Source: an uncultured Actinomycetes bacterium (GTDB taxonomy: Bacteria > Actinomycetota > Actinomycetes > Nanopelagicales > Nanopelagicaceae). Taken from it: a stretch of DNA of 35,728 nucleotides. How positions within the stretch are numbered: position 1 is the first letter of the stretch; each line of letters opens with the position of its first letter. The translations under genes and the position numbers were made by a program. Location of the stretch: the NCBI GenBank assembly GCA_903892335.1, contig CAITID010000163.1:1-35728 (forward strand), read 5' to 3'. This document shows positions 20,053 through 23,518 of the stretch, piece by piece. Below the pieces are notes generated by a model, which was not told the origin of the DNA, made no database searches, and was given only the letters and a program-made list of their open reading frames with translations.

Positions 20053-20090
20053 TATGGGCCCAGTTCCTTTTGCAAGGAACTGGGCCCATA
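20053..20090 (-). terminator. Perfect 17-bp stem, 4-nt loop hairpin: transcription terminator of the surface-protein gene
   Basis: TATGGGCCCAGTTCCTT - loop - AAGGAACTGGGCCCATA is an exact inverted repeat, 24-61 nt past the surface-protein stop and just before the O-antigen ligase gene. No strong U-tract follows on the minus strand (TTCATTGATATG), as is common for actinobacterial terminators. It probably ends or stabilises the abundant surface-protein mRNA and insulates the downstream operon. Confidence 0.85.
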
Positions 20091-20113: not shown

Positions 20114-21913
20114 TTACGCCTTTACCTTCTTCTGAATTTTTAGAACCAAGTTTGTTAATGTAACAATCAAAGTTCTTAGTGATGCAACTGTTGTTGCCAA
20201 CGCAGTAACTGCAGCAAGAGCCGCTGATCCTGAATCGGTAACTGTTGCAGACGCTGTAACTGCTGTTCCTTGAATTGCAGCAACAGTAACTAGTGTTCCA
20301 ATAGCAGCATTTGTTGCGCTGCCTGTTGGGTTAGCTAATGTTCCAGTCAAAGTTACAGTGCCTGGTGTTGATGGCATGTAAACAGTGTAGGTAACAAAAC
20401 CAGCAGTTGAAACTCCCGCTGAGGTTGCAGATGCAAAGGTAACTGATGTATCAGTTGCTGCCGCAAATGTTCCTTGTGAGAAGTTCTTATCTGTCGCAAG
20501 TACCTTACCGGTTGCCCACAATTCGTAAGTTGTTGGAACAACTAATAAATTGGTTGCATCGTAAGCAGCTACGGTGATGATTGCTTTCTCACCTGGAGCG
20601 TAATTTGCCTTATCAAAAGCAACCTTTACAGATGAGATTGCAGTTGAACCAACACGTAGTGTTACAGGAGCGGACTTAATTGTTGATGCAGCAAGTGTTG
20701 CAGCATTTCCAATTGTGATTGTTGTTGTACCGGCTTTAACACCAGTTACAGAAACAGTTCCTGAATCTACTTGGTAGTCAAGTGTTCCAACTGTCGCAAC
20801 AGTTGTATCACTTGAATAGGCGTACCAAACTTGCTGAGTTCCACCTGTTGGTGTGAATTCATCATTTAATACGTTTGCAGCTGAGTCAGCAGCTGTGAAG
20901 GTTATAGCCTTTAGGTTTGCTCCTACAGCCAAGATTGCCTTACCGGCAGCGGCTGTGAAGGAAGCAGTTGGGCCAAAGAAAGTAACAGTCTTTGTACCAA
21001 GAGTTACACCAGAGGTTGAACCCTTAATTGTAATTGTTGACTTTCCAGCAACGCCATCTGACCAAATAGTAACTGTGTCACCATTCTTTACAGAAATTGA
21101 GCGACCTGCTGATACAGCTGTGCTTCCTAGTCCAAGAGTTCCTGGGCCAGAGATTTCAGCAGTAATTGATTCAGCAACTGCGCCACCTGCAGCGTTAAGT
21201 GATGAGTAGTAAACATAACCACGAGATGTTGAGGCTACTTCTCTCGAAGCCGCTACTACTGAGTCTGTGGTTGGTGTTGCTGCAGCACCAGCTGCCTGAA
21301 CGAACACCTTTGACTTGGTTGCATCAGGTGTAACGCTTTCAATTGCTGCTGTTGTAACAGTAATTGTCAGTGTTTGGGCTGTTGAACCTTGAAGTGGGCC
21401 AGAGACAGTTCCACCAGATGCTGGTGTGATTTTAACTGAGTATGTACCAGCAACAGTTGGTCCAGCTATGTTTGTTGTTGTTAGATAAACAGCAAACTTG
21501 GCAGTTGTAACTTTAGCAGGGTCTCCAGCTCTTACAAAAGCAGCTGTGTTTGAAGTTTGTGTATCGCCAACCAGAGCAAAAGGTGAAGCGCCGCGAGGTG
21601 CCACCAAAGTATCAATGATTGCTGATGAGGTTTCTACCAAACGCAATGTAGGTAGAGCAGTATTTCCAGCAGGTGCTGCTGTTAATGCAGCAGTAATTGA
21701 CATTGAGTCATTAGCTGGTGCAAAGAATGAAACTGTTACAACAGCTGATGTGGCTGTGTATGTTTCAGCAGTTGTTTGTGCCGCAGTTGGCGATGACAAA
21801 GTCACCGAATCCGCGTTAATTACAGCTTGTGAAGGAACTGAGCTAAGTACTCCCAGACCCAACGCTGCAACAGCTACAAGCGCAATGCGCTTGAAGTTTG
21901 TCGTTGTAGACAT
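20114..21913 (-). CDS. Exported Ig-like (BIG2-type) surface/S-layer-like protein
   Basis: 599 aa from the ATG at 21911-21913, chosen over the track's 22042 start because a good Shine-Dalgarno (AAAGGA, 5-nt spacer) precedes it and the signal peptide follows at once (MSTTTNFKRIALVAVAALGLGVL..., likely cut after SQA30). The mature chain is Thr/Ala/Ser/Val-rich with beta-sandwich repeats, including a BIG2-like unit (DTTVATVGTLDYQVDSGTVSV then GVKAGTTTITIG). It ends in a hydrophobic/basic helix (TVASLRTLIVTLTNLVLKIQKKVKA) with no LPXTG. It is probably an abundant cell-surface protein. It lies directly downstream of a membrane-tethered ECF sigma factor and is followed by a strong hairpin. Binding partner and anchor are unknown. 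Confidence 0.82.
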   Translation of the reverse strand: MSTTTNFKRIALVAVAALGLGVLSSVPSQAVINADSVTLSSPTAAQTTAETYTATSAVVTVSFFAPANDSMSITAALTAAPAGNTALPTLRLVETSSAIIDTLVAPRGASPFALVGDTQTSNTAAFVRAGDPAKVTTAKFAVYLTTTNIAGPTVAGTYSVKITPASGGTVSGPLQGSTAQTLTITVTTAAIESVTPDATKSKVFVQAAGAAATPTTDSVVAASREVASTSRGYVYYSSLNAAGGAVAESITAEISGPGTLGLGSTAVSAGRSISVKNGDTVTIWSDGVAGKSTITIKGSTSGVTLGTKTVTFFGPTASFTAAAGKAILAVGANLKAITFTAADSAANVLNDEFTPTGGTQQVWYAYSSDTTVATVGTLDYQVDSGTVSVTGVKAGTTTITIGNAATLAASTIKSAPVTLRVGSTAISSVKVAFDKANYAPGEKAIITVAAYDATNLLVVPTTYELWATGKVLATDKNFSQGTFAAATDTSVTFASATSAGVSTAGFVTYTVYMPSTPGTVTLTGTLANPTGSATNAAIGTLVTVAAIQGTAVTASATVTDSGSAALAAVTALATTVASLRTLIVTLTNLVLKIQKKVKA

Positions 21914-21918
21914 TTGTT

Positions 21919-21924
21919 TCCTTT
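21919..21924 (-). promoter_or_regulatory. Shine-Dalgarno fixing the surface-protein start
   Basis: The minus strand reads GAAAGGAAACAAATG; AAAGGA lies 5 nt before the ATG at 21913. It is one of few clear ribosome-binding sites in the window and supports the 599-aa product over the 642-aa ORF. Confidence 0.8.
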
Positions 21925-21934
21925 CAATAGTCGT

Positions 21935-22021
21935 CTCTAAGTATTTCTTAGAGGCGGCTTTGAGATGAGTCGCACGTGCTGACGCATCTCTTTCCCCCCG
22001 TGATATCCGGATCACAGGAGA
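21935..22021 (-). promoter_or_regulatory. Structured 5' leader: three consecutive hairpins upstream of the surface-protein gene
   Basis: In transcript order there are three hairpins. (1) CTCCTGTGAT-CCGGAT-ATCACGGGGG (21994-22021), about 11 pairs including several G-U. (2) GAGATG-C-GTC-loop-GAC-T-CATCTC (21962-21990), with the palindrome GCACGTGC in its loop. (3) CTCTAAG-AAATA-CTTAGAG (21935-21953), just before the Shine-Dalgarno. They fill the 126-nt gap between the sigma-factor stop and the corrected start. They may separate expression of the two genes, stabilise the mRNA or regulate translation. No known riboswitch class was recognised. Confidence 0.55.
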
Positions 22022-22042
22022 AACCTGGTTGTTAGAAGTCAT

Positions 22043-23518
22043 TTACTTGACTCCCTTGGCGCTTACATTGATCGCCTGGGCAAGAATTTGGCTCTTGCTA
22101 GAGTCCATAATTATACGGGTAGATATTTCCCCTGGGATCGCATCGACATCCAACCCGGAGGTGGAATCGAAGAACATGCCCGATTCAACAGTGGAATCCA
22201 CGTATAAAGTGGCGGTCAAAAGGTAGTTACCGTTAGGTAGGCGCGAAATCTTGGAATCTGACCCGTTCAAGGTCATTGGGTACCAATTTCCAGCAATTGT
22301 CACAGATGGGCTAGCTGCGTAAGAGGTTCCAGCGCCATCAACTGTGATTGATTGAGAAAGCAAAATATTTATTGAATTAGCACCTGTTGATTGAACATAA
22401 GAGATAAGCACATATCCATCTGGATTGGTTACTGATGATCCAGGAGTTGTGACAATAGATCCAACATTTCCTGATAAGTCAGAGACTGTAAATCCAACCG
22501 GTGTTCCATCTTTAGCTAAACCAGCAAATAAAGTATTTGAAGCTTTAAAGTTAATTGAATTATTCTCAGTTACTACTTTCTGGCTTGATAGTTCCTCATC
22601 CGATGGAGCAACTGATTCTTCAGGAGCAGCCTCAATAGTTGCAGGAGCCTCTTGAGTAAAGTTAGTTACTGAAGGAAGATTATTGAATTCTGCGCCAGTT
22701 ACAGAGTTAAATCCTAAAAACGCAACAATCACGATTAATAATGAAAGTGCAACCTTTGAGGATTTCTTGGCAAGCTCTGCTGCCTTCTTGTAGGTATCAG
22801 ATAAAGCATCTAGCGCAGTAGCGCCAGTCTTTTCATCAATAACCCATTCAGATAAAACTCGAACAAATGAAGCGCGAGCGCGAGTAACAACATGGCGCAC
22901 ATTCGCAGGTGTTGTTCCAATCGCCTTTGCAATCTCTTCGGTTGACCGTCCTTCAACCTCCCACATAACTAATGCAGTGCGTTGTGAAGGTGACAGGCGA
23001 GATAGTGCTTCACGAATAATTGAGGCATCCTCTGCAGCAGCAAGAGTTGCATCCATTGGGATGTGATTTTCTGCTGCGATTTCAGATAAACGCTCTTGGG
23101 TGGTGTCGGCATCAATTGCTACCAAGTTTGGACGTGAACCAGTTGCTCTAATTACGTTTAGGCAAAGGTTGTTCACAGAGGTACGAAGGTAGGCAAGAGC
23201 ACGATCTGCAGTATCTAGTTCAGGTGCTGCCAAGATGAATTTAAGGAAAGCATCTTGTACTACTTCAGCTGCATCTGCATCGCTTCGAAGAATTCGGCGG
23301 GCTTGAGCGATAAGTGATGAGCGGTTTTCAGCGTAGAGTGCGGATAAATCAGAAACAGACCACGCAGCAACAGATGCTGGGGCCTGAGCCTTCTTACGAA
23401 GTGACACTTGATTTCCCGCTTTCAGAGAGACAACGTCTTGCCCTCTACTTAGTAAGACACCTGAAGGGGTCAAATGTTGTCCTCTATTTTGGTAAATCTG
23501 TTGGTCCCTGAGACTCAT
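22043..23518 (-). CDS. Membrane-tethered ECF sigma factor with extracytoplasmic C-terminal domain
   Basis: 491 aa from the ATG at 23518; the track begins 10 codons earlier at a TTG. Track numbering: region sigma2 ~69-135 (LYAENRSSLIAQARRIL, DAAEVVQDAFLKF, AYLRTSVNNLCLNVIR) and sigma4 ~175-235 (LSRLSPSQRTALVMWEVEGRSTEEIAKAIGTTPANVRHVVTRAR). A single transmembrane helix follows at ~266-282 (VALSLLIVIVAFLGF), then about 218 exported residues beginning with an acidic linker (TIEAAPEESVAPSDEE) and a beta-rich domain. No anti-sigma gene is adjacent. The likely target is the surface-protein gene that begins after the leader. Release, for example by proteolysis, would be needed if tethering restrains it (inference). 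Confidence 0.85.
   Translation of the reverse strand: MSLRDQQIYQNRGQHLTPSGVLLSRGQDVVSLKAGNQVSLRKKAQAPASVAAWSVSDLSALYAENRSSLIAQARRILRSDADAAEVVQDAFLKFILAAPELDTADRALAYLRTSVNNLCLNVIRATGSRPNLVAIDADTTQERLSEIAAENHIPMDATLAAAEDASIIREALSRLSPSQRTALVMWEVEGRSTEEIAKAIGTTPANVRHVVTRARASFVRVLSEWVIDEKTGATALDALSDTYKKAAELAKKSSKVALSLLIVIVAFLGFNSVTGAEFNNLPSVTNFTQEAPATIEAAPEESVAPSDEELSSQKVVTENNSINFKASNTLFAGLAKDGTPVGFTVSDLSGNVGSIVTTPGSSVTNPDGYVLISYVQSTGANSINILLSQSITVDGAGTSYAASPSVTIAGNWYPMTLNGSDSKISRLPNGNYLLTATLYVDSTVESGMFFDSTSGLDVDAIPGEISTRIIMDSSKSQILAQAINVSAKGVK

Follow-up and report, generated by a model that had tools for sequence, protein, structure and literature searches.

The closest described systems are ECF sigma factors fused in one polypeptide to a membrane part. 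In Actinobacteria these form the groups ECF52, ECF53 and ECF48, with SCO4117 of Streptomyces coelicolor as an example, in which sigma2 and sigma4 are joined to one or two C-terminal transmembrane (TM) helices and an outer region, with a zinc-finger anti-sigma domain between sigma4 and the membrane, and proteolytic activation is expected for them (PMC8999054). A further example is IutY of Pseudomonas putida (ECF243), which has a FecR-type anti-sigma part, takes part in iron signalling and is released by Prc and RseP (PMC8999054).

The locus considered here lies on a 35,728-nucleotide stretch of DNA from an uncultured member of the Nanopelagicaceae, which we refer to as the window. Its sigma factor shares with ECF52, ECF53 and ECF48 the fusion of sigma2–sigma4 to a C-terminal TM part and an outer region, and with IutY the presence of sigma and membrane/outer parts in a single protein. 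It differs from the former in carrying no zinc-finger part, for which reason we have not filed it in those groups, and in a regulon that seemingly consists of one operon with a surface-protein gene and a leader RNA; neither the FecR-type domain nor the iron signalling of IutY is seen. A preliminary description had suspected that this was no known class of fused ECF protein, and this agrees with the comparison, made with the groups as described in PMC8999054, since all of those have a zinc-finger or FecR-type anti-sigma part. The same description overlooked the structured RNA, the promoter and a switching cassette in relatives, all presented below. The features of the locus are as follows.

23455–23478, minus strand: ECF-type promoter AACATTT-N11-GTGTCT upstream of the sigma gene (spacing kept in relatives; genome scan; helix association).
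22043–23407, minus strand: membrane-tethered ECF sigma factor, 454 aa (Pfam; start by comparison; TM helix and cysteine count; AlphaFold).
21911–22025, minus strand: structured leader RNA of the surface gene, with hairpins P1, P2 and P4, the ribosome site and the ATG (covariation; G-U excess; no Rfam match).
20114–21913, minus strand: exported surface protein, 599 aa, with signal peptide, tandem Ig-like domains and a C-terminal helix (translation; AlphaFold; Foldseek).
20053–20090, no strand assigned: terminator-like strong palindromic hairpin past the surface gene, with a 17-bp stem.

The anchored sigma factor

A single open reading frame contains Sigma70_r2 (E 4e-11) and Sigma70_r4_2 (E 1e-11), both above the Pfam cut-off, and lacks sigma3, the arrangement that defines ECF sigma factors. 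Among the NCBIfam matches listed only the superfamily lies above its cut-off, and the best Foldseek matches of the whole model are ECF sigmas. The domains are followed by a single hydrophobic helix, beginning at residue 219 (454-residue form) and preceded by KKSSK, which by the positive-inside rule places the N-terminus inside and the C-terminus outside. About 215 residues lie beyond the helix, and residues ~291–452 are modelled by AlphaFold as a confident beta-sandwich, with the linker, TM and stalk region at low confidence. This sandwich is without a match among the Foldseek matches listed for the whole model, which are of sigma type only, and profile comparison gave no relation between it and the domains of the surface protein. 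The TM helix is retained in 32/32 aligned relatives together with the juxtamembrane KKSSK, and the cytoplasmic linker from sigma4 to the helix is short and conserved. There is no anti-sigma gene adjoining the sigma gene and no zinc-finger anti-sigma domain in the protein, as its entire length holds one cysteine.

The domain plan, the missing anti-sigma gene and the beta-rich outer part stand as first proposed, and the helix persists in relatives. The start codon does not: it had been placed at ATG 23518, and is almost certainly GTG 23407, because relatives begin at this position, because L033 and L034 (73–76% identical) have no in-frame start more than nine codons further upstream, and because the promoter would otherwise sit inside the supposed N-terminal extension.

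The outer sandwich is not universal. In two complete genomes (G001 and G156) the sigma factor ends ~80 residues past the TM helix and the sandwich is absent. Short forms that keep the helix and end ~80 residues later without a sandwich are encoded at the loci L055, L056 and L138, and in L055 and L056 the leader is also a variant.

We consider that the sigma domains would probably be freed by stepwise proteolysis, the last step falling to the site-2 protease of the genome; an M50 site-2 protease gene is present there, as such genes are in 14/14 control genomes. It is unlikely, but deserves mention, that the sigma factor acts while in the membrane by a one-component logic like that of ToxR or CadC and is never released. 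The protein has no anti-sigma domain that would require removal, its linker is conserved, and forms without the sandwich persist, all of which would suit such a mode, but a holoenzyme operating from the membrane would be unusual. Moreover, for every fused membrane ECF group with data, proteolysis is believed to be the activating step (PMC8999054).

Gene order, promoter and leader RNA

Across 85,462 species genomes the scan detected 79 sigma loci, of which 14 end inside or right after the sigma gene; in the 65 with sequence beyond it the order sigma–leader–surface gene is kept without exception (65/65), which bears out the proposed link of sigma factor to surface-protein gene. All 65 homologues are apparently Nanopelagicales. 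The named carriers among the 79 loci include Candidatus Planktophila versatilis, P. lacus, IMCC26103, IMCC25003, IMCC19121 and IMCC26077, and metagenome-assembled genomes titled Bifidobacterium, Streptomyces or Oligoflexia among the loci are probably mislabelled. All of the family's single-contig genomes that were searched have a homologue, and absences fall mainly in fragmented assemblies. Variants of the layout include a tandem duplication of the entire sigma–leader–surface unit (L132, 6241–12828) and an extra leader-plus-surface gene upstream of sigma (L133, 6212–9970). A different family of the same class holds a distant sigma homologue (L064, 8629–10012, genome G103), which has an exported-protein gene ~110 bp downstream, no TM part and no leader match.

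Relatives carry an ECF-type promoter ahead of the sigma gene at constant spacing, in two sequence classes. Sigma factors with an NVRH-type recognition helix have AACATTT-N11-GTGTC in 26/27 loci and those with an AVRH/TVRH-type helix have ACA-N15-CGTAG in 36/36, so that promoter class matches recognition helix in 62/63 loci with no crossed combinations; shuffled sequences match at 0.1% (AACATTT class) and 1% (ACA class). This association may reflect one ancestral split, and we therefore regard it as support rather than proof. The window promoter is the sole exact match in its own genome. For the AACATTT class, a search of eight genomes gave one exact match each in six, two in G043 and none in G001 (a reversed control pattern matched once, in G011), and a longer form of the ACA-class pattern gave one exact match in each of 8/8 genomes with no control matches. 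In all 15 genomes having an exact match, it is located at the sigma gene. Because the promoter is usually unique per genome and its class tracks the recognition helix, the sigma factor is probably dedicated to its own operon and predicted to drive only itself and the surface gene; exact-match scans overlook degenerate promoters, so the regulon may be wider.

The surface gene might instead have its own housekeeping promoter, with the sigma factor merely co-travelling and controlling other genes. Third-position conservation was examined group by group for a second promoter in the 3' end of the sigma gene and gave no consistent signal: it is raised near that end (columns 521–560) in group B, which consists of three close sequences, but the other groups lack it. 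A second surface gene can also occur elsewhere without a sigma gene. The invariable gene order, the duplication of the whole unit in L132 and the near-restriction of the sigma promoter to the sigma gene all speak against this arrangement, which we regard as distinctly improbable, and the self-type promoter supports the surface gene as a target of its sigma factor, as the preliminary description had supposed.

In one clade (L045, L051, L052 and relatives) a conserved direct-repeat-like motif, TGTCCGTTTTGTCC, lies upstream of the promoter, and a conserved AACCGGTT adjoins the sigma ribosome site; both are possible further control elements.

The gap of ~115 nt between the sigma and surface genes is the leader. 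Its elements in the window are:

21993–22022, minus strand: hairpin P1, loop UCCGGAUA; two-sided changes in 9/11 pairs.
21962–21990, minus strand: hairpin P2, loop region AGCACGUGCG; two-sided changes in 7/12 pairs.
21932–21956, minus strand: hairpin P4; two-sided changes in 6/10 pairs.
21919–21925, minus strand: ribosome-binding site GAAAGGA, nearly invariant.

To obtain the three hairpins, the intergenic sequences of 18 relatives were aligned without regard to structure and the alignment was then folded. In that alignment 96.8% of cells are paired, as against 75.6 ± 1.2% in shuffles and 32–53% with slid partners, and two-sided changes occur in 22/33 pairs, amounting to 136 cells as against 45.8, where cells are not independent events. 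When 67 leaders were aligned to the resulting model, 96.6% were paired and two-sided cells numbered 475 as against 138, although this alignment, being made with the model, leans towards the structure. The leader gave no match to the Rfam 15 covariance models and is, as judged from its sequences, a previously undescribed RNA. Its model matches in 82/201 genomes of the order and, among the matches listed, all are of one family.

It is highly improbable that the hairpins are instead DNA sites, such as protein-binding or recombination palindromes. The loops are indeed palindromic, and a further palindrome in relatives behaves like a recombination site, but in the structure-free alignment G-U cells outnumber A-C cells by 59 to 4, so it is the mRNA strand that folds.

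An upstream extension of the surface reading frame (MTSNNQVSPV..., start 22042) seemed to be conserved at the protein level but was rejected as protein in favour of the leader RNA, because leader lengths differ by non-multiples of three and because some relatives have no open frame there. Copies 2 and 3 of the leader in the window's own genome (G000 contigs C152 and C190; L099 and L100) each begin where a contig ends and adjoin surface genes that differ. We read them as versions of the same locus rather than as paralogues, probably due to strain variation or contamination, in which the sigma factor is shared and the surface genes vary.

We propose that the leader RNA determines how much surface protein is made in relation to sigma, because a single transcript must give few sigma and many surface molecules, and that it is most likely an element of mRNA processing, stability or translation. 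It might alternatively be a riboswitch-like RNA that binds a ligand or protein and switches the surface gene rather than acting constitutively, which we think somewhat unlikely. The UCCGGA loop of P1 and the ACGU core of P2 are almost invariant and the stems vary freely, which suggests recognition of the loops, but the hairpins stand in a row with no junction or pseudoknot seen, no alternative terminator was found in the leader, and the ribosome site is not consistently masked or exposed (mean exposure 0.56 as against 0.55 in the shuffled control). Both loops (window 21962–22022) are self-complementary, which makes it conceivable that transcripts kiss or dimerise through them.

The surface protein and a cassette in relatives

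The surface gene starts at ATG 21913 and, as first described, encodes an exported Ig-like protein and is followed by a strong terminator. The AlphaFold model (mean pLDDT 69) consists of tandem Ig-like domains and a C-terminal helix, and Foldseek matches it to S-layer proteins and invasins, amid many other Ig-like proteins. Relatives' surface proteins are 29–52% identical to that of the window, with start, signal peptide and end nevertheless conserved, and Big_1 was detected in two of them. In its row of exported Ig-like domains the protein resembles S-layer and related Ig-like proteins (SbsB, SbsC and archaeal 7ptp, which are among the Foldseek matches, and PS2 for function), and sequence and models agree in giving it the export signal and repetitive beta domains by which S-layer proteins are recognised; unlike these, it has no S-layer family or anchor domain by sequence, and Ig proteins of other kinds match as well. 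Downstream in the window are genes for an O-antigen ligase, a UDP-sugar dehydrogenase and an epimerase, a surface-glycan neighbourhood. Literature searches brought up no publication dealing with a Nanopelagicales S-layer or with how one is controlled; one acI paper mentions S-layers.

In some relatives the leader has an additional hairpin, P3, carrying the palindrome CTCAT-N5-ATGAG. Six genomes (G044, G088, IMCC26077 (G032), G019, G236 and G167) have a second surface gene, convergent to the first, ahead of which only P3 and P4 are found, without sigma or promoter, and a PF00589 tyrosine recombinase lies between or beside the two. The cassettes are located at:

L042, 5061–10002
L038, 2912–8240
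L057, 9345–16260
L104, 6512–15292
L130, 6374–12629
L131

The two copies within a genome are nearly identical over ~160–165 bp in L042, L038 and L104, and less alike in L057, L130 and L131; in L042, L038, L057 and L104 the repeat match starts at the palindrome or a few bases from it. A recombinase and/or second gene accompanies 6/16 site-bearing and 0/25 siteless sigma-linked loci (Fisher p about 0.002, with L054, of the same genome as L104, counted once and the false second copy L145 left out). The cassette is likely an invertible surface-protein switch. Many contigs end at the leader, as a variable or repeated junction would cause them to. The locus also supplies an explanation for the breaks in metagenome assemblies here.

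The nearest parallel is CwpV of Clostridioides difficile, where invertible DNA lies in the untranslated leader between the promoter and a cell-wall protein gene (PMC2784873). The relatives' cassette shares with it a tyrosine recombinase and apparently invertible DNA in the leader. CwpV goes on or off, whereas in the relatives two convergent surface genes, with the recombinase beside them, seem to trade places behind a single sigma factor and promoter. The window locus lacks the palindromic site and has no inverted site pair, recombinase or alternative surface gene.

A proposed self-regulated coat operon

We favour, with reasonable though not strong confidence, a self-regulated surface-coat operon under a membrane-anchored ECF sigma factor with a leader RNA. 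What the analysis establishes is the protein architecture, the gene order, the RNA structure and its strand, the promoter/helix association and the rarity of the promoter; autoregulation, a read-through transcript, proteolysis, the signal and the role of the RNA are inferred. The TM-anchored sigma factor would recognise essentially one promoter per genome, that of its own gene, and transcription would continue from the sigma gene across the leader into the surface-protein gene and end at the terminator. In most members the outer beta-sandwich may read a cue at the cell surface, the simplest being whether the surface protein is there or has assembled, and that reading would control whether the sigma domains act. 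The retention of the circuit without a beta-sandwich in G001 and G156 counts against this scheme, and qualifies the earlier suggestion that the outer domain could sense surface-layer integrity and govern release of the sigma domains.

Members of the Nanopelagicales (acI) rank among the most abundant freshwater bacteria. Somewhat tentatively, the locus can be seen as a lineage-wide coat module of this order, combining a one-protein membrane sigma switch with no regulon beyond its own operon, a novel type of leader RNA governing surface-protein output and, in some members, a recombination site inside the leader through which coat proteins are exchanged behind a single sigma-driven promoter. The preliminary description is right in its observation and partly supported in its interpretation; the stronger findings are the undescribed RNA together with the promoter logic seen in the window, and the relatives' cassette. 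The locus provides a minimal, testable control circuit, its leader represents a class of RNA not described before whose covariation is very strong, and the cassette is a candidate mechanism of coat variation that would bear on phage and grazer resistance. If the module is as proposed, it would let these bacteria vary their surface heritably in defence against phages or grazers, and the arrangement suggests how acI cells keep their outer coat under control and perhaps switch it.
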